Of a stretch of DNA of 64,000 nt, positions 19,998-26,607 are shown piece by piece. Origin of the DNA: Pelagicoccus sp. SDUM812003 (GTDB lineage Bacteria > Verrucomicrobiota > Verrucomicrobiia > Opitutales > Opitutaceae). Within the stretch, counting starts at the first letter, position 1. Every line of letters begins with the position of its first letter. The stretch lies in NCBI RefSeq assembly GCF_031127815.1, contig NZ_JARXHY010000007.1, positions 186,001 through 250,000 of the forward strand. The letters are read 5' to 3'. The notes beneath the pieces were generated by a model. That model made no database searches and was not told where the DNA came from. It worked only from the letters and a program-made list of their open reading frames with translations. A program made the position numbers and the translations under genes.

Positions 19998-20492
19998 TTA
20001 GGCGCTTATCGAGTCGGTGAGCTCTGCCTCTCTTCGGGAGAAGGACGGCTCCTCCTCTCGCTCGGCCGCGCTGAAAAGGTTGGTGGTGGCGAAGTCCACC
20101 GGCACCAGTCGGCAATTGGTCTCGATGAGTCGATAGGCGTCTGGCTCCGAACTTTCCTGAAGATAGAACGAGCAGAGCTTGAAGCTGTCGGTGGTGGCCG
20201 CAGTGAGGCTGATGCGATCCATGCGCGGCCTGCCGATGGGAGAGGGAAGCTCCTCCTGATAGTTCTTTGGCTCGCGATGAATTAGGATGTAGGCGATGGC
20301 TTCGCATTGCTCCAGCCACGCGTTGATAGCGGAGTTCAGATTCGGCAGAGAAATGTCGAAGGAGTGAGCGAGAAAGCGGTCGTGTATCGAATAAGCAATG
20401 ACAACGATCGTATCTTCGCTCTCCGGGATGAAGTCGCGAGAGCGACATTCGCAGAAGCGACGTCCGGTCTGAATCAGCTGCCCGAGAATCAT
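19998..20492 (-). CDS. Hypothetical protein (164 aa)
   Basis: Soluble acidic protein with no membrane segment or signal peptide. It starts MILGQLIQTGRRFCECRSRD and contains a hydrophobic core strand IVVIAYSIHDRFLAHSFDI, then a helix LNSAINAWLEQCEAIAYILI. The C-terminus (EREEEPSFSRREAEL) is charged and probably disordered. No family recognised. It lies just downstream of the heme operon on the same strand, with a 116 bp gap that contains a GC-rich palindrome near 20557-20576. Whether it belongs to that operon is uncertain. Confidence 0.6.
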   Translation of the reverse strand: MILGQLIQTGRRFCECRSRDFIPESEDTIVVIAYSIHDRFLAHSFDISLPNLNSAINAWLEQCEAIAYILIHREPKNYQEELPSPIGRPRMDRISLTAATTDSFKLCSFYLQESSEPDAYRLIETNCRLVPVDFATTNLFSAAEREEEPSFSRREAELTDSISA

Positions 20493-20608: not shown

Positions 20609-21946
20609 CTACGGTGAGCGTTCGGACTGCAGCCTGCGGAGCTTTTCCTCCACCATTTCCAGACTCTCCACATGGACTTGCGGCCGACCTTGGAAGTTGC
20701 TTCGAATCAGGTCTTGATCGGCCAGAGCGTCGATGGCGAAACCGAGTCCATGGCATTGCAAGCAGACCGGGCGTATCATCTTTTCGTTGGGGCGCAGCGT
20801 TTCGTTCTGGTTGTGCAGGACGCGGTTGGAAACCTCTCCGAACTCGTTGCGCTCGACGCGTGGGAAATGGCAGGTGGCGCAGGAAACGCCGCTATCGGGC
20901 GGCCCTTCGCCCGCGAGTTCCTTGGTCCAAAGCTCGGCGTGCAGCGATCCGCGATAGTTGTTCACATGTTCGCTATCGTGACAGCTGATGCAGGCTTGCC
21001 TTGAAGCGAACTGCACGTCCGAGCTGTGGGCGTCATGGCAAGCGACGCAGCTGAGCTCCTTGTGCGCTGCCGATTGGTGCATGGGGATTTCGGCTAGGGC
21101 GGGCGTCATGGGACTCAATCCAGCGGCCAGCCTCATACCATGCATGCTCTCGAGAAAGGTCTCGGTCTCGTAGTCGTGACAGCTCTGGCAGGCGGCGAAA
21201 CCGGGTTTTTCGACAAAGGCTGCCCCCTCCGGCTCGTGGCAATCGGAGCAGTTGACGCCAGCTTTGGCGTGGGCGCTGAGAGACCAGTCGTACACCACGC
21301 TTTGAGTGAAAGCCACGTCGTCCGGACTGTCGCGATCGCTGGCTCCTAGCGGCTGGCGCCGGTTTTCCTCGGACCATCCATGGTAGTGGTTTTTCGGTAG
21401 CTTGCGCGGATCCTCCGCAAAGGGCTTGTCGTTCAGGTGCTGCTCCAGAAAGTCTTCGTAGAGTGCGGTGTTGTCGTGGTAGTTGTGGCAGCCTGCGGTG
21501 GAGCAGCTATCGAAAGGCAGCCCTTTATGCGTCGGTCGATCCTCTTCGATGTCCTGATGGCAGAAAAAGCAGTAGTCGGCTGGAAGCGTGAGGCCCATTT
21601 CGAGCGTGGTTTCGGGACTGTGCTCGCGGTGGCAGGTGACGCAGTTTCGAGCGTCGAGGATCTCCACCCGGTCGGCATTGCGCGGATCGAGAAACTTGGC
21701 TTTGGGGTGGGAGTCGTTGGCCCGTTTCAGCTCCGCCTGGTGACAGTCCGTGCAGGCGTTCGGCCTGAGGCCCATATCGTCCGAGTGACAGGCCGAGCAC
21801 TGCAGCTCGATCTGGTGATGGCCGTGCGAGGTGGCGCCGGGGAGAAAGGCCGATTCCTGGGTCACGCCGGCTTCAGGACTGAACTGGACCAGGCAGATGA
21901 CTGGTACGATCGCTGCGAGGATCCACTGGAGCTTGTTGCTGGACAT
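20609..21946 (-). CDS. Eleven-heme c-type cytochrome
   Basis: 445 residues with an N-terminal signal anchor (about residues 8-21) and eleven heme-attachment motifs. Ten are CXXCH, starting at C50, C65, C102, C126, C233, C253, C300, C319, C356 and C395. One is CX4CH at C148 (CSTAGCH). It must be exported and matured by a cytochrome c system. The motifs split into an N-terminal group of five and a C-terminal group of six, separated by about 80 residues. It starts nine bases after the stop of the flavoprotein/cytochrome b gene, so the two surely work together. It may carry electrons across the periplasm or reduce a nitrogen oxide; I see no CXXCK active-site heme as in NrfA. Confidence 0.88.
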   Translation of the reverse strand: MSSNKLQWILAAIVPVICLVQFSPEAGVTQESAFLPGATSHGHHQIELQCSACHSDDMGLRPNACTDCHQAELKRANDSHPKAKFLDPRNADRVEILDARNCVTCHREHSPETTLEMGLTLPADYCFFCHQDIEEDRPTHKGLPFDSCSTAGCHNYHDNTALYEDFLEQHLNDKPFAEDPRKLPKNHYHGWSEENRRQPLGASDRDSPDDVAFTQSVVYDWSLSAHAKAGVNCSDCHEPEGAAFVEKPGFAACQSCHDYETETFLESMHGMRLAAGLSPMTPALAEIPMHQSAAHKELSCVACHDAHSSDVQFASRQACISCHDSEHVNNYRGSLHAELWTKELAGEGPPDSGVSCATCHFPRVERNEFGEVSNRVLHNQNETLRPNEKMIRPVCLQCHGLGFAIDALADQDLIRSNFQGRPQVHVESLEMVEEKLRRLQSERSP

Positions 21947-21955
21947 CGTTTCGAT

Positions 21956-23908
21956 TTAGTAGGCGTAGACCTTGTAGATGTGAAAGCCCAGCAATGCCGG
22001 ATAGGGCCAGAAAAAGACGATGTGCATCCTTGTCACAAAGGAACGGATACGACGCGCAAGGGGCGAGGTGAAGCGATCCTCCATAGCGACGGTGAGACCC
22101 GCTAGGGCTCCGACTAGATTTAGGGAGACGAAGACGCTCATCAGCCAAAGGTTGAGGTTGTTTCCGAAGCTCAATCCAGTATGGGCCAGCAGCGCCAGTA
22201 GGCAGATGCTGCCAAGAATGGCATGGGTCGCCCGCCACCAGCCGAAGTTTCCGAAGCGAGCGAAGGTGACTCGTTTGCGGGCGGAGAGTCCCAGAGCCAG
22301 GAGGGATGCTCCGGCCATGGTGTATCCAGAAATCTGTTTATAGAGTTCCTCGGTCCAGAGCTTGCAAAACTGATAGTAGGCGTCCTGCACCGTCGTGGGT
22401 ATGGGCAGAGGGCCGACAAGAAAGAGCGCCAGAACTATGCTGGCCGCAATCCAGGAGGCAGCCAAAAGCGCTCTCCTGCCCTTGGGGGCGAAGACGGCTT
22501 CCTCGTCGGTGGCTCCCACCAGCTGCCCGAGCAGAGGTCGGCAGGATCCGCAGACGGTGCCCGCTCCTGTTTCTTTGGAAAGTTGGGAGACTGAAGAGCA
22601 ACCGTTCGAGACGCAGGCTGAGATTTGGCCCTTGCTGATCTGAACGCAGTTGCAGATCATGGTATTGGCTGTCCAATCCAAGGCGCTTTCGCCTGCGTCG
22701 ATGAGGCCGGTCTTCTCGAACTTCGCTTGCTCGGAGGGCGACATGAATCGCTGGTCCTTCACCGCGATTTGTATTTGGTGAATTTGTCCCCAGTCTCCAA
22801 CTACAGTCGCTCCCGCGATGCAGTCGCGTTTAAGGACTAGCATGCGATAGCATTGGGCATCGCGATAGACGAGAGTCTTGCCTTCGCCAAGATTGTCGCC
22901 AAAGGCGCACACCTCGACACCTAGCAGTTTGAGTCGGCAGGAAGTGTCCGCGCCTTCGAAGCAGCGTTCAAACCCTTCTATCCGATCGGCGAGGATGTCC
23001 GCCATGTGGTAGCCGGGAGCGACCAGTCCGTAGATCTGCCCTCTATGCAAGGCGCATTCGCCGATGGCGTAGATGTCGGAATCGCTGGTTTGAAGGCTGT
23101 CGTTCACCAGTATGCCGCCGCGCGCTCCCAAGGATAAACCGGACGCTTGGGCGAGGTCATCCCTCGGGCGTATCCCAGCGGCAACTACGAGGAGGTCCGT
23201 TTCGAGAATGGTATCGTCGGAAAAGGTGATGGAGAGCCCCCCGTTTCTCCGCTGCACAGTTCTGGCTCCTTTTCCTAGAAGAGGGGTGACGCCGAGTTCG
23301 CGAACGTTTTTCTCCAAGACCATCGAGGCGTCCTGATTCAGCTGGCGTGGCATGAGTCCGTTGGCGAATTCCACCACGTAGGTCGCGAGGCCAAGTTCGC
23401 GAAGGGCGTTGGCCGCCTCGAGACCGAGAAGACCGCCACCGAGGGCGATACCTCGCTTCTTGCCTCGTGCGTATTCGATTATCTTGGACGCGTCCTCGAT
23501 AGTACGGTAGGTGAAGACACCCTCCGTATCTATACCTTCGATGGGGGGTACGAAAGGCGTGGAGCCGGTAGCGAGCACCAGCTTGTCATAGGGCAGGCGT
23601 TCGCCGGTATGGGTGACGACCTCCTTGCGCGCTCGATCGATGGCGACAGCTCGGCAGCCTTTCAGCAGCTGAACTCCGTTCTTCGCGTACCAGGAATCCT
23701 TCGCGAGCAGAAGCGACTTGTGATCCCGGTGGCGAAAGTAGGCGCTCAGGTGGACCCGATCGTAGGCATGATGAGGCTCCTCTCCAAGGATAGTGAGCTG
23801 GACGGGCAGTCGCTTCTCGGCGAGGCGCTCTGCGAAGCGTTGGGAGACCATGCCGTTGCCCACCACGAGGATTCTCATTTTCGCTGGTTTCGGTCTGCTC
23901 ATACGCAA
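21956..23908 (-). CDS. NirB-like FAD reductase fused to 2Fe-2S and di-heme cytochrome b module
   Basis: Three-part protein of 650 aa. Residues 1-400 are the NAD(P)H/FAD half of NirB-type nitrite reductase: FAD fingerprint ILVVGNGMVSQ, NAD fingerprint ALGGGLLGLEAA, and IYAIGECALH. Residues 415-460 are a BFD-like [2Fe-2S] domain with C419, C421, C453, C456. The NirB siroheme half is absent, so it should not reduce nitrite itself. Residues 480-650 have about five membrane helices. Helices 3 and 5 each carry two histidines 14 apart (H562/H576; H629/H643), the spacing that binds two hemes b in the cytochrome bc family. Predicted topology puts the FAD part in the cytoplasm. ATG at 23878 is an alternative start. 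Confidence 0.85.
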   Translation of the reverse strand: MRMSRPKPAKMRILVVGNGMVSQRFAERLAEKRLPVQLTILGEEPHHAYDRVHLSAYFRHRDHKSLLLAKDSWYAKNGVQLLKGCRAVAIDRARKEVVTHTGERLPYDKLVLATGSTPFVPPIEGIDTEGVFTYRTIEDASKIIEYARGKKRGIALGGGLLGLEAANALRELGLATYVVEFANGLMPRQLNQDASMVLEKNVRELGVTPLLGKGARTVQRRNGGLSITFSDDTILETDLLVVAAGIRPRDDLAQASGLSLGARGGILVNDSLQTSDSDIYAIGECALHRGQIYGLVAPGYHMADILADRIEGFERCFEGADTSCRLKLLGVEVCAFGDNLGEGKTLVYRDAQCYRMLVLKRDCIAGATVVGDWGQIHQIQIAVKDQRFMSPSEQAKFEKTGLIDAGESALDWTANTMICNCVQISKGQISACVSNGCSSVSQLSKETGAGTVCGSCRPLLGQLVGATDEEAVFAPKGRRALLAASWIAASIVLALFLVGPLPIPTTVQDAYYQFCKLWTEELYKQISGYTMAGASLLALGLSARKRVTFARFGNFGWWRATHAILGSICLLALLAHTGLSFGNNLNLWLMSVFVSLNLVGALAGLTVAMEDRFTSPLARRIRSFVTRMHIVFFWPYPALLGFHIYKVYAY

Positions 23909-23954
23909 GGCGCGGCGTTAGCGACGTCGAGAAGCGGATCTCGGTTGCGAAGTC

Positions 23955-24410
23955 TCAGGCCGCCGCTCCGCTTGATTTGGATGTCGAGGACGGTCCCTTC
24001 AGCTGCAGGATCATTTCGCGTATCGACGCTCCTGTTTCGGCTTTGAAGGTGTGTCCTAAGGTTTGCTGGAAAGCGTAGACGAGAGCGTCTTCGAAGCAGT
24101 CGAGATCCACCGGCTGCTCGAAAATCAGAATGCTCCGCTGATCGCGTTCGTCGGTGGTATTTGGGAATGTATCGACGGATTGACTACGAAAGACCAAAGT
24201 ACCGACCAGGTGTACGAACTGAGTGTGGCACCTGCCGAGGGCCAAAGCTCTGAGGGACCTTGTTTCCGGAAGGCGTTCGGCGAGTCGATAGAAAAGGATC
24301 TCTGCGAACGCGTCGGAAACGGGCAGGCAGCGCTTCCAGGCCGATTTCAGTTCATCGTGGTTGAGGGAACGGTTCATGGTCCAGATAGGTAGAGCGCTAT
24401 TTGCTGACAT
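23955..24410 (-). CDS. Divergent globin-like protein lacking an obvious proximal His
   Basis: 151 residues that align by eye with single-domain bacterial globins. ELKSAWKRCLPVSDAFAEILFYRLAERLPETR matches the A-B-C helices (read in two parts: ELKSAWKRCLPVSD and FAEILFYRLAERLPE). The G-H region matches DLDCFEDALVYAFQQTLGHTF. Globins normally carry the proximal His before the G helix; here the segment reads DERDQRSILIFEQ with no His. The gene overlaps the upstream cytochrome gene by 14 bp. An internal ATG at 24377 would remove 11 residues. It could be a sensor-type or heme-less globin. Family call is moderate, made without a profile search. Confidence 0.6.
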   Translation of the reverse strand: MSANSALPIWTMNRSLNHDELKSAWKRCLPVSDAFAEILFYRLAERLPETRSLRALALGRCHTQFVHLVGTLVFRSQSVDTFPNTTDERDQRSILIFEQPVDLDCFEDALVYAFQQTLGHTFKAETGASIREMILQLKGPSSTSKSSGAAA

Positions 24411-24807
24411 GGGTCATGAAACGCACGGCTTGTTTCACTTCTTCATCGCTGAGTTCGGTGAATCCTCCTTTAGGCGGCATCTCGGTGTATTTCGGTCCGA
24501 TGAAGCCGTTTAGAGCGTGGTCGTACAGCGTATCCAGTCCTTTGGCGATGCGTGGCGCCCATGCCTCGGTGTTTCCGATAATGGGAGCGCCCGTGAGCCC
24601 GGTCATATGGCAGGTCTTGCAGGTGCCGAGCCAGGTTTGTTGACCCGCAATCAAGTCGGGATCGTCGAGCGTGACGGCGGCCGGATCGAAAGGCTGGGCG
24701 ATCGTCTTCTTTTCCGGTTCCTTTCCGCAGCCCGCGAGCGCGACGGCAAGCGATAGGGCGCTAGCCGTGGCGATCGGATGGAGGCAGCTGCAATGGCGAT
24801 GGGACAT
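24397..24807 (-). CDS. Cytochrome c5-like lipoprotein
   Basis: Class I cytochrome c of 136 aa with one heme site CKTCH (C63, C66, H67) and an axial-Met candidate in EMPPKGGFTEL. The N-terminus is a signal peptide with lipobox ALAGC (Cys27), so it is probably lipid-anchored in the periplasm. AVRFMTHVSK is the typical c5/c-type C-terminal helix. It sits inside the heme operon between the truncated hemoglobin and the globin-like gene, and could shuttle electrons between periplasmic partners of the b-type module and the eleven-heme protein. Confidence 0.88.
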   Translation of the reverse strand: MSHRHCSCLHPIATASALSLAVALAGCGKEPEKKTIAQPFDPAAVTLDDPDLIAGQQTWLGTCKTCHMTGLTGAPIIGNTEAWAPRIAKGLDTLYDHALNGFIGPKYTEMPPKGGFTELSDEEVKQAVRFMTHVSK

Positions 24808-24829
24808 GCCAGGGAGGGATGAGGTGTTG

Positions 24830-25213
24830 CTACTTGTTGAGCACGTCGCCCTTGGTGGACTCGGCGATCGCCGCAGCTTCGCCGATCATATCCATCGGCA
24901 CGCCAAGCTCCTGCAGGGTGGCGCCGAGGTTTTCCATCACGGCGTGGAAATGGCTTTCGTTGAGGCCCATCTCCTCCACCAGGCGCTTGTGGGCTGCGCG
25001 CATGCTGCGACCGGTGTACTGGGGAGCTCCACCGAAGGCGTAGGTGAGAAACTTCTTCTGGTGGCCGATCTGCTTGCTCATGTCGACGCCTTCGAAGAAG
25101 TGTTTGATGCGATCGTCGGCGAGAACCTTCTTGTAGAAAAGGTCGACTGCGGCGTCCACGGCGGCTTCGCCGCCGATGCGGTCGTAGAGAGAGGGTGTTT
25201 GCGTTTCGCTCAT
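24830..25213 (-). CDS. Group I truncated hemoglobin
   Basis: Two-over-two globin of 127 aa (trHbN class). YDRIGGEAAVDAAVDLFY opens the fold with the B10-type tyrosine near residue 27. QIGHQKKFLTYAFGGAPQYTGRSM is the family centre (in two parts: QIGHQKKFLTYAFGG and APQYTGRSM). The proximal His is H75 in RAAHKRLV. Group I relatives oxidise NO to nitrate in an O2-dependent reaction; that role fits the NsrR-like site and regulator nearby. It is the second gene of the operon, 25 bp after the DUF3365 gene. Confidence 0.92.
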   Translation of the reverse strand: MSETQTPSLYDRIGGEAAVDAAVDLFYKKVLADDRIKHFFEGVDMSKQIGHQKKFLTYAFGGAPQYTGRSMRAAHKRLVEEMGLNESHFHAVMENLGATLQELGVPMDMIGEAAAIAESTKGDVLNK

Positions 25214-25238
25214 TGTATTCAGATTATGGATTTATGAT

Positions 25239-25835
25239 TTAGTCGAGAGGAATTCTGATGACGACGCCGCCCATGACTTCGCCCATCTTGAAGTCGGTGC
25301 GAGGCGAGTCCTTGTGCTCGTTGTGGCAGTCGATGCAGGCTGCGGCTACGCCTGTGTCGGCGTAGATGCCGGTGAAGTACTTGGTGCCGCCCAGCGTCTC
25401 CTCTGCGTAGTAGTTTTGACCGGGATTGTCGGCGATGAACTGCAAGCCCTCTTTTTCGGCATCGGTTTTCGGAGCGTTCTGCTTGTTGATCGGCCAGAGC
25501 GACTGTAGTGAATAACTGAATTCACCATTGCTTTTTTCGGCTACCATCTCTGCCCCCATGCGGAACATTTGAGCAGGTAGCGGCAGGGCCTTGTCATCCA
25601 CCCAATGTTCGCTAGCGGTGATGACCTTGTCCTGTTTGGTGAGTCGGTTGACCACGTTGCGGGTGTAGACGGTACGGTCGGAGCTCATCACGAGGTGCAG
25701 AGCGTCCGCCATCTTCTGCGGACTGATGCCGCTAGCAGCTTCCGAGCTGTCGTCGCAGCCCGAAAAGAGGATCGAGGAGAGGGTGAGGGTCGCTACGGTC
25801 GCAGCGACAGCCAAGGAGTTCGTTTTCTTGTTCAT
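25239..25835 (-). CDS. DUF3365 (Tll0287-like) c-heme lipoprotein
   Basis: 198 aa. The signal peptide ends in lipobox LFSGC (Cys27), so the protein should be membrane-attached in the periplasm. The rest matches the Tll0287/DUF3365 heme domain, a PAS-like fold: NPGQNYYAEETLGGTKYF, then one c-heme site CIDCH (C167-H171) and the C-terminal MGEVMGGVVIRIPL. Such domains are thought to sense redox state or gases when joined to kinases; here it is free-standing. It is the first gene of the six-gene heme operon and lies directly behind the NsrR-like operator. Confidence 0.85.
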   Translation of the reverse strand: MNKKTNSLAVAATVATLTLSSILFSGCDDSSEAASGISPQKMADALHLVMSSDRTVYTRNVVNRLTKQDKVITASEHWVDDKALPLPAQMFRMGAEMVAEKSNGEFSYSLQSLWPINKQNAPKTDAEKEGLQFIADNPGQNYYAEETLGGTKYFTGIYADTGVAAACIDCHNEHKDSPRTDFKMGEVMGGVVIRIPLD

Positions 25836-25896
25836 ATCGGATTAGGCGAGGATCAGGTTTGATTTCCTCACCAAGCTTAGCATCCGATATGCCAGA

Positions 25897-25919
25897 AAGA
25901 GGTATTTATAATGCAACTT
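25897..25919 (-). promoter_or_regulatory. NsrR-like operator
   Basis: On the minus strand the half-sites are AAGTTGCATTA and AAATACCTCTT, separated by one T. This fits the 11-1-11 pattern AAGATGYATTT-N-AAATRCATCTT known for NsrR at 19 of 22 defined positions. It sits 61-83 bp before the start of the DUF3365 gene. Its TTGCAT could be part of a -35 element, so binding would block transcription. An NsrR-like gene lies 230 bp upstream. Confidence 0.6.
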
Positions 25920-26151
25920 ATGGATTGCCTTGGAAAAAGCGCTCTTTCAGGGGCGTTGGTATTGGATTTCGCATCACGTGAAGTCTGCGATCGCTGGACC
26001 TATGAATTTCGTTTATCCGACCTATCGATTTCAGTCCGAAAACGAGATCGAAATCGAGGCGCTCAAAATTCCCCTGATCGAGATCGAGCGCTGGGGAGGC
26101 GGCGGGTTTTGGTATCTGTACCGGAAATGCAGATACGAGGTCAGGTCGAAG
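25920..26151. other. Intergenic region between nsrR-like gene and heme operon
   Basis: About 230 bp. A plus-strand frame opens at 25930 and could encode about 70 plausible residues before it runs antisense into the regulator gene, but I see no ribosome-binding site or family match. The operator and presumed promoter of the heme operon are at its left end. Confidence 0.4.
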
Positions 26152-26607
26152 CTATTCGGAAACGCGACTTTCGCTAAGGCTGGGGAACTGTCTTCGCAAG
26201 TTTTCGGGACGCTTGACGAGGTCGGCCAAAGTGAATCGTTCCAGCTCGGAATAGAAGGCGTTTTCGGCTTGTTTCAGGGCCCCTTTGAGCACGCAAGCGG
26301 GTGACAAGCAGCAGGAGTTTTTCACTGGGTCGAAGCATTCGATGAGCGGCGCGTCTCCTTCGGTGAGACGGACGAGCTGTCCTGCGTTGATGTCCCGTGG
26401 GGCTTTGGCGAGGCGCAGACCGCCTCCTTTTCCTCGAGTGGCCTGCACGTAGCCGAGCTGATTCAGGTTTCCAGCGATTTTGACCAGATGGTTTCGGGAG
26501 ATCTGGTAGGCGTCGGCGACTTCCTGGAGCGAGACCAGGCGATCGTCGTTCAGGGCGAGGTAGATGAGGAGACGAAGGCTGTAGTCTGAAAATTTGGTGA
26601 GCTCCAT
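26152..26607 (-). CDS. nsrR: Rrf2 family regulator, NsrR-like
   Basis: 151-residue winged-helix repressor with an Fe-S cluster. The N-terminus MELTKFSDYSLRLLIYLAL and SRNHLVKIAGNLNQLGYV match NsrR closely, including the recognition helix. RGKGGGLRLAK is the wing. Cluster cysteines are C91, C99 and C105, with an additional C100 (NSCCLSPAC). NsrR binds NO at the cluster and leaves DNA. The NsrR-like operator in front of the nearby heme operon supports this. IscR is excluded by the different cysteine pattern. It lies 30 bp after hisF and may be co-transcribed with it, so its own expression may not be NO-controlled. Confidence 0.85.
   Translation of the reverse strand: MELTKFSDYSLRLLIYLALNDDRLVSLQEVADAYQISRNHLVKIAGNLNQLGYVQATRGKGGGLRLAKAPRDINAGQLVRLTEGDAPLIECFDPVKNSCCLSPACVLKGALKQAENAFYSELERFTLADLVKRPENLRRQFPSLSESRVSE

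Follow-up and report, generated by a model that had tools for sequence, protein, structure and literature searches.

A rare multiheme and flavoprotein gene module of Verrucomicrobiota with a probable tie to nitrate assimilation

Two described systems deal with nitric oxide (NO) in the setting of nitrate use. In Bradyrhizobium, the narK-bjgb-flp-nasC genes are described as providing a globin, Bjgb, and a flavoprotein, Flp, that handle NO arising from nitrate assimilation (PMC4724949), and in Chlamydomonas THB1 is described as an NO dioxygenase that is reduced by the flavin adenine dinucleotide (FAD) of nitrate reductase (PMC4620153). Here we analyze a 64-kb stretch of the genome of Pelagicoccus sp. 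SDUM812003 (contig NZ_JARXHY010000007.1, positions 186,001 to 250,000), called the window below, which contains six adjacent heme-protein genes beside a gene for an Rrf2-family regulator. This gene module is real and rare, and is best read as a membrane-spanning variant of the globin and flavoprotein systems that handle NO in nitrate assimilation. Its tie to nitrate assimilation is very probable. We give about even weight to the more specific proposal that it acts as an accessory to this pathway, handling NO and related by-products of cytoplasmic nitrate and nitrite reduction.

All six heme genes are on the minus strand, with the coordinates and the short gaps or overlaps that a preliminary description of this DNA had given. 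In order of transcription they encode a DUF3365/Tll0287-like (sCache_heme) c-heme protein that is probably a lipoprotein (25239-25835), a group I truncated hemoglobin (24830-25213), a mono-heme cytochrome c that is also a probable lipoprotein (24397-24807), a divergent single-domain globin (23955-24410), a fusion of a NirB-type FAD/NAD(P)H half with a BFD [2Fe-2S] domain and a putative di-heme b membrane domain (21956-23908), and an undecaheme cytochrome c (20609-21946). Read 5' to 3', the intergenic distances are 25, 22, -14, 46 or 52 (depending on which of two candidate starts is used) and 9 bp. The Rrf2 gene (26152-26607) is on the same strand, 316 bp upstream of the operon, and thus is probably its own transcription unit.

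Conservation of the module and nitrate-assimilation genes

Relatives of the module were searched for using the membrane domain of the fusion protein as the probe, which is present in 3/132 genomes of an order sample and in 9/387 genomes of a phylum sample. A contig scan using a pair of peptide patterns found three loci, in Cerasicoccus frondis, Cerasicoccus maritimus and Verrucomicrobiae bacterium DG1235, with both Cerasicoccus loci being on the same contigs as two from the order sample. There are 12 loci in total including the window, from five families (f1, f20, f29, f33 and f59) and DG1235. Genes for the fusion protein, the undecaheme cytochrome and DUF3365 are clustered in every one of these Verrucomicrobiota loci and constitute the core of the module. 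Gene order is kept in relatives, a point on which the preliminary description had called for a check. Other parts of the module are more variable. An orthologue of the mono-heme cytochrome is found in five of the 12 loci, and an Rrf2 gene adjoins the module in four (the window, DG1235 and the two Cerasicoccus). A globin gene is present in eight loci, five of which have only a single-domain globin of the PF00042 type (DG1235, L022, L023, L027 and L029) and two only a GlbN-type truncated hemoglobin (the two Cerasicoccus), while the window has both kinds. Between the window and DG1235 the Rrf2 protein, the DUF3365 protein, the cytochrome c, the fusion protein and the undecaheme protein are 61-76% identical.

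A wider scan of the class gave matches in 29/384 genomes, of which five, at 239-268 bits, are known carriers; the other 24 (~29-44 bits over ~70-80 positions) were set aside as other cytochromes b by score and coverage alone. A plasmid collection searched for the membrane domain gave no match, and no description of the module was found in the literature searched, a scope that excludes subscription journals. A small gene downstream of the module (19998-20492) has no Pfam match, and has a counterpart at the same position in DG1235 (L010:11017-11508; 55% identity, 144 aa).

The tie to nitrate assimilation is observed both in gene co-occurrence and in gene linkage. Using the assimilatory nitrate reductase of this genome as the query, at an E value of 1e-150 or better, we found the enzyme in 47/387 phylum genomes, including all nine module carriers of that sample. 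The two 387-genome samples were taken as identical, and the genome labels listed for them agree. The hypergeometric probability of this co-occurrence is 2.8e-9 when counted by genome and 1.4e-5 when counted by genus (6/6 versus 33/198), in both cases with no correction for shared ancestry. When all 12 carriers are considered the enzyme is present in each, and eight of them have a NIR_SIR reductase near it. Regarding linkage, nitrate-transport (Nrt) genes lie beside the module in 7/12 loci. Three of these seven (L022, L027 and L029) additionally have the molybdenum nitrate reductase NasA, a Fer4/DmsC protein and a NirA-type NIR_SIR reductase beside the module; L027 and L029 also have a CysJ-like flavoprotein there, and L022 has a lone flavodoxin. 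A related side observation is that in L060, L061, L062 and L064 the assimilatory nitrate reductase is paired with a Fer4/DmsC-type membrane protein, and this pairing suggests a quinol-linked assimilatory nitrate reductase in Verrucomicrobiota.

The nitrate-assimilation link goes beyond the preliminary description, as do three features taken up below: a sigma-54-like element, the loss of a proximal His in one globin and the GlbN/THB1 type of the first globin.

The Rrf2 regulator and the promoter region

The Rrf2 protein (PF02082, 3e-37) has Asp8, Cys91, Cys99 and Cys105 as ligand residues, and its best PDB match is ScNsrR (5n07, 4e-24), with the cluster ligands aligned. The Asp and the three Cys are kept in all four module-adjacent Rrf2 proteins. 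These residues correspond to the ligands reported for the [4Fe-4S] cluster of NsrR (PMC5411485, PMC9338935); RirA is likewise reported to have a [4Fe-4S] cluster, so the ligands do not separate NsrR from RirA. When scored against the NCBIfam equivalogs the protein reaches 130.8 bits for NsrR (cut-off 182) and 121.9 bits for RirA (cut-off 193). By sequence, it is a regulator of the NsrR/RirA type and cannot be filed as NsrR.

Between the Rrf2 gene and the operon is an NsrR-like imperfect palindrome of 23 bp, AAGTTGCATTATAAATACCTCTT on the gene strand (site A, 25897-25919, minus strand). Site A matches 19 of the 22 positions of an extended NsrR consensus. It also matches 12 of the 14 positions of the published consensus gATGyAT-N5-ATrCATc (PMC1274295). 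At two mismatches this pattern occurs once in the window, where 0.31 occurrences are expected, and at least once in 27 of 100 shuffles, so site A is not significant at the scale of the whole window. The genome (5.75 Mb) has 27 NsrR-like sites versus six for a control pattern, which corresponds to ~0.0015 per 316 bp; it is therefore the place of site A, in the gap beside the Rrf2 gene, that is unlikely. The NsrR-like gene and operator of the preliminary description are thus partly supported: the 23-bp site exists as given and the regulator has the ligand residues of NsrR, but the protein scores under the NsrR cut-off and only two of the four Rrf2-linked carriers have such a site.

A second element, site B (CTGGCATATCGGATGCTA, 25878-25895, minus strand), lies 22 bp downstream of site A, centre to centre. 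Its GG-N10-GC spacing matches the geometry of a sigma-54 -24/-12 promoter, and the same spacing is present in all four Rrf2-linked module promoters. Exact TGGCAY-N5-RTGCTA sites number one in this genome, one in C. frondis, two in C. maritimus and four in DG1235, and in each of the four genomes the module promoter is among them. In DG1235, one of the three other exact sites is 80 bp before nirA (a short opposite-strand frame predicted there was taken as spurious). One-mismatch copies of site B are located 92 bp before nirA in this genome and 35 bp before nrtA in C. maritimus, and C. frondis has a similar sequence in a 3.4-kb stretch beside Nrt genes. A site B-like element thus precedes nirA or nrtA in three of the four Rrf2-linked carriers. 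Given that the pattern was derived from the module promoters, only the nirA and nrtA matches are independent. A strict pattern, one that also misses both Cerasicoccus sites, gave no such element at the module in the eight other carriers. RpoN is encoded in all 12 carrier genomes, and in L024, L026 and L028 a sigma-54 activator gene is next to the nitrate transporter. Site B may alternatively be a second Rrf2 operator palindrome, as its GCA-N7-TGC symmetry would allow; because of the GG-N10-GC spacing and the like elements at nirA and nrtA, we prefer to see it as a candidate sigma-54 promoter element.

Redox proteins and globins of the module

The N-terminal part of the fusion protein (Pyr_redox_2, 1.5e-54; Fer2_BFD, 1e-9) matches positions 1-471 of the 794-position NirB model TIGR02374 at 465 bits, which is below the cut-off of 578. 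A Pfam scan gave no siroheme/NIR_SIR domain in the fusion, which is therefore no nitrite reductase; its C-terminus is instead a cytochrome b membrane domain with about five helices. All 12 fusions keep the four BFD-cluster Cys and four His (562, 576, 629 and 643, forming H-x13-H twice). In a structural model (predicted local distance difference test score, pLDDT, 84.5) the first two His share a helix and the other pair is placed on two successive helical segments, an arrangement that would suit two stacked b hemes. For this cytochrome b domain, Foldseek gave no match at an E value of 0.001 or better, a profile search of the PDB gave nothing up to E 1, and the Pfam matches are weak, with b561 and DUF4405 matched by five of the 12 members each and ferric reductase by one. 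Overall, the domain make-up renders plausible the NAD(P)H-linked trans-membrane redox chain that the preliminary description had put forward.

The multiheme cytochrome (Cytochrom_c3_2, 8e-17) does have the eleven hemes earlier attributed to it, as 10 CxxCH motifs and one C-x4-CH motif, and all eleven motifs are kept in the 12 sequences. From its N-terminus and c-type hemes the protein is probably exported. Outside of the heme motifs are 14 invariant His, enough for bis-His ligation of all 11 hemes, so that every heme may be an electron carrier. CxxCK, the usual form of the catalytic heme in octaheme nitrite reductase and NrfA, is absent from all 12 undecaheme sequences. In a profile search of the PDB the best relatives are octaheme nitrite reductases and NrfA, with an E value of 4e-9 and a matched stretch of 55 positions. 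An AlphaFold model of the undecaheme protein had a pLDDT of 48 and was discarded.

The DUF3365 protein (PF11845, 9e-19; lipobox read by eye) has an orthologue with a domain match and a CxxCH in all 12 loci. These 12 proteins have no Cys other than those of the N-terminus (signal or lipobox) and of CxxCH, and consequently none has the axial Cys of the Tll0287-type redox class. A signalling-linked DUF3365 member without an axial Cys is reported to bind NO tightly, and stand-alone members are assigned redox roles in the same 2026 preprint (PMC12889525). The window protein, which is stand-alone and has no axial Cys, thus fits neither class cleanly. As a side observation, this genome also has two larger DUF3365-domain proteins (L009, C8:135509-137921; open frames of 557 and 714 aa), which may be NO-binding signalling proteins like those described there. 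The mono-heme cytochrome c matches PF13442 (Cytochrome_CBB3, 2e-12).

The first globin (PF01152 Bac_globin, 2e-17) had been labelled trHbN. Its membership in the group I truncated hemoglobins holds, but its best PDB matches are cyanoglobins (1e-43) with mycobacterial HbN well behind (6e-19), and so it is closer to the cyanobacterial GlbN and algal THB1 type. Its His75 and His51 align as the proximal and E10 His; it has no signal peptide that we could see, and is 68-71% identical to the Cerasicoccus truncated hemoglobins. It differs from GlbN and THB1 in lying in a cytochrome operon and in lacking the His that serves covalent heme attachment.

The second globin-like protein matched no Pfam model at E 1 and no PDB chain. 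Its homologue in DG1235 is the PF00042 globin encoded at the corresponding position (21% identity, 2e-8), whereas the single-domain globins of DG1235 and four other carriers are 60-66% identical. At one position it has Ser where all five aligned relatives have His, and at another a Phe is also lost; these are the positions of the proximal His F8 and the CD1 Phe, respectively. The residue expected of a functional globin is accordingly not found in it. From these sequences, one globin seems to have been acquired in the window organism as the other decayed, and the His-less globin may have taken on a new, heme-free role.

Proposed function and comparison with known systems

In the mechanism we propose, electrons would pass from NAD(P)H to the FAD of the NirB-type half and on to the [2Fe-2S] domain, which would re-reduce a cytoplasmic globin that oxidizes NO to nitrate, with this nitrate being usable again by the assimilatory enzymes. 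The di-heme b membrane domain would also pass electrons outward to the 11-heme cytochrome and to the DUF3365 and mono-heme lipoproteins, and this periplasmic arm could reduce NO or nitrite there or act as an outlet for surplus electrons. For the four carriers with a linked Rrf2 gene, a sigma-54-type promoter like those of nirA and nrtA would be combined with an NsrR-like Rrf2 protein as an added NO-responsive layer. We propose the globin branch because of the precedents of Bjgb with Flp (PMC4724949) and THB1 (PMC4620153), and the outward branch because of the domain anatomy. Outward electron flow is reasonably probable; that NO handling is the purpose of the module is an even call.

Several observations weigh against this proposal. 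Most genomes with the assimilatory nitrate reductase (38/47) do not have the module, which is therefore not needed for assimilation. No nitrate gene was seen in the stretch examined around the module in the window (64 kb), DG1235, the two Cerasicoccus and L023, the nitrate-assimilation cluster being elsewhere in these genomes. Four loci (L024, L025, L026 and L028) have the core but no globin within the stretch examined, and therefore globin reduction is not the core function there unless a globin is encoded elsewhere. Site A has a counterpart in only one of the three other Rrf2-linked carriers (DG1235, L010; 18/22 of the extended consensus), and no NsrR-like site was found in the two Cerasicoccus loci despite their adjacent Rrf2 genes. 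Among the other 26 NsrR-like sites of this genome, the eight inspected are all inside predicted reading frames, and thus no NsrR regulon is visible. Reversed controls for the strict site B pattern gave 3, 0, 3 and 5 sites in this genome, C. frondis, C. maritimus and DG1235, so the strict pattern, with totals of 8 versus 11, is no commoner than its control. Finally, NO binding by a stand-alone DUF3365 member is reported to be weak, whether its axial Cys is present or replaced (PMC12889525). Judged by analogy with this case, lack of the axial Cys alone is no predictor of NO binding.

A bolder form of the proposal, which we regard as tentative and somewhat unlikely, is a two-sided defence against NO and nitrite. 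A NirB-derived flavoprotein with its siroheme domain exchanged for a di-heme b domain would use one NAD(P)H source to recharge a cytosolic NO-dioxygenase globin and to drive a periplasmic undecaheme NO/nitrite reductase, and would be co-induced with nitrate assimilation via sigma-54. The globin slot would be exchangeable between single-domain and truncated globins, with the window organism, whose first globin has decayed, caught mid-exchange.

The best surviving alternative is that the module chiefly supplies electrons for nitrate assimilation, with the NirB-type half serving nitrate reductase as Flp serves NasC, and with the membrane and periplasmic arm balancing electrons with the respiratory chain. 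This would fit the linkage and co-occurrence with NasA, the requirement for flp reported for growth of Bradyrhizobium on nitrate (PMC4724949), and the 4/12 loci that have the core without a nearby globin. We nevertheless consider it unlikely, as most NasA genomes are without the module and as the enzymes seem to be served by separate donors: in the NasA clusters examined in eight carriers, a Fer4/DmsC-type protein is by NasA in all eight, and by NirA there is a CysJ-like reductase in six and a lone flavodoxin in one more.

A second alternative, which we judge improbable, is dissimilatory NO or nitrite respiration, with the undecaheme cytochrome as a periplasmic reductase fed by NADH. The profile relationship to octaheme nitrite reductases and NrfA (4e-9, 55 positions) speaks for it, as do the NapA-like and NrfA genes that this genome also has. 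On the other side are the missing CxxCK motif and the 14 invariant His, with which all hemes may be bis-His carriers, and the distribution of dissimilatory enzymes. NirK is over the cut-off in none of the 12 carriers (four genomes have weak matches), in a search that covered NirK and NrfA and left out NirS and NO reductases. NrfA is over the cut-off in 8/12, but in three of these all matches are short or interrupted, and the module's own cytochrome can give short ones; an intact, full-length NrfA is present in 5/12, while DG1235 has a weaker match with a stop codon inside. It is assimilation genes to which the module is tied. Of the NO detoxification or respiration function in the preliminary description, the link to NO thus remains plausible, and respiration is not favoured.

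We note separately that this genome has an NrfA-family frame with two in-frame TAG stops (C12:23643-25154) besides an uninterrupted match at C4:288832, and that the frame of this kind in DG1235 (C6:702788-704260) has one TAA. The NapA-like nitrate reductase of this genome (contig C3, L065:5619-12534) scores 885.7 bits, just under the cut-off of 904. Its neighbours include tetraheme cytochromes, DsrO- and DsrP-like proteins and a further Rrf2 regulator, which is an unusual setting for a periplasmic nitrate reductase.

The least probable alternative is a role in periplasmic redox or NO sensing, in which the DUF3365 lipoprotein and the cytochromes report a state and carry no bulk electron flow, since although DUF3365 domains fused to signalling modules are reported to bind NO, the tested one lacking an axial Cys as the window protein does (PMC12889525), the module has no signalling domain, the stand-alone member of that report binds NO weakly and its kind is assigned redox roles, and a sensor would hardly call for an NADH-driven di-heme b domain plus 11 hemes.

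With the module as an NO-handling accessory of nitrate assimilation, uncharacterized multiheme, DUF3365 and NirB-like proteins of Verrucomicrobiota become linked to nitrate assimilation, and stand-alone DUF3365 proteins gain a physiological setting that can be tested. This reading also points to a control of NO during nitrate use that may extend across the membrane. Because the module is small and present in named strains (C. frondis, C. maritimus and DG1235), the idea is directly testable.

When compared with known systems, the undecaheme cytochrome is a distant profile match to octaheme nitrite reductase and NrfA, and is unlike them in its 11 hemes, its lack of CxxCK and a best match of only 55 profile positions. 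The fusion protein shares the N-terminal FAD/NAD and BFD half of NirB, the large subunit of NADH-nitrite reductase, but has a membrane cytochrome b domain in place of the siroheme/4Fe-4S nitrite-reductase domain. With the NsrR regulon, as presented in PMC1274295 and PMC5411485, the locus shares an Rrf2 protein with matching cluster ligands, an NsrR-type site and an NO-related target; it differs in that the Rrf2 protein is under the equivalog cut-off, the site is not kept in Cerasicoccus and no further regulon member appears among the eight of 26 sites inspected. THB1, a close sequence relative of the window's truncated hemoglobin, is reported to receive its electrons from a flavin domain when nitrate is used (PMC4620153), as we propose for the window globin. 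Finally, the Bradyrhizobium system, so far as its report describes it (PMC4724949), shares the nitrate-assimilation setting and the combination of a single-domain globin with a FAD/NAD(P)H flavoprotein for by-product NO, a likeness by setting and parts and not by comparison of the Flp and Bjgb sequences. In contrast to that system, the flavoprotein of the module continues into fused BFD and putative di-heme b membrane domains and is followed by periplasmic 11-heme and DUF3365 cytochromes, and control would be by a sigma-54-like promoter where Bradyrhizobium uses NasST.

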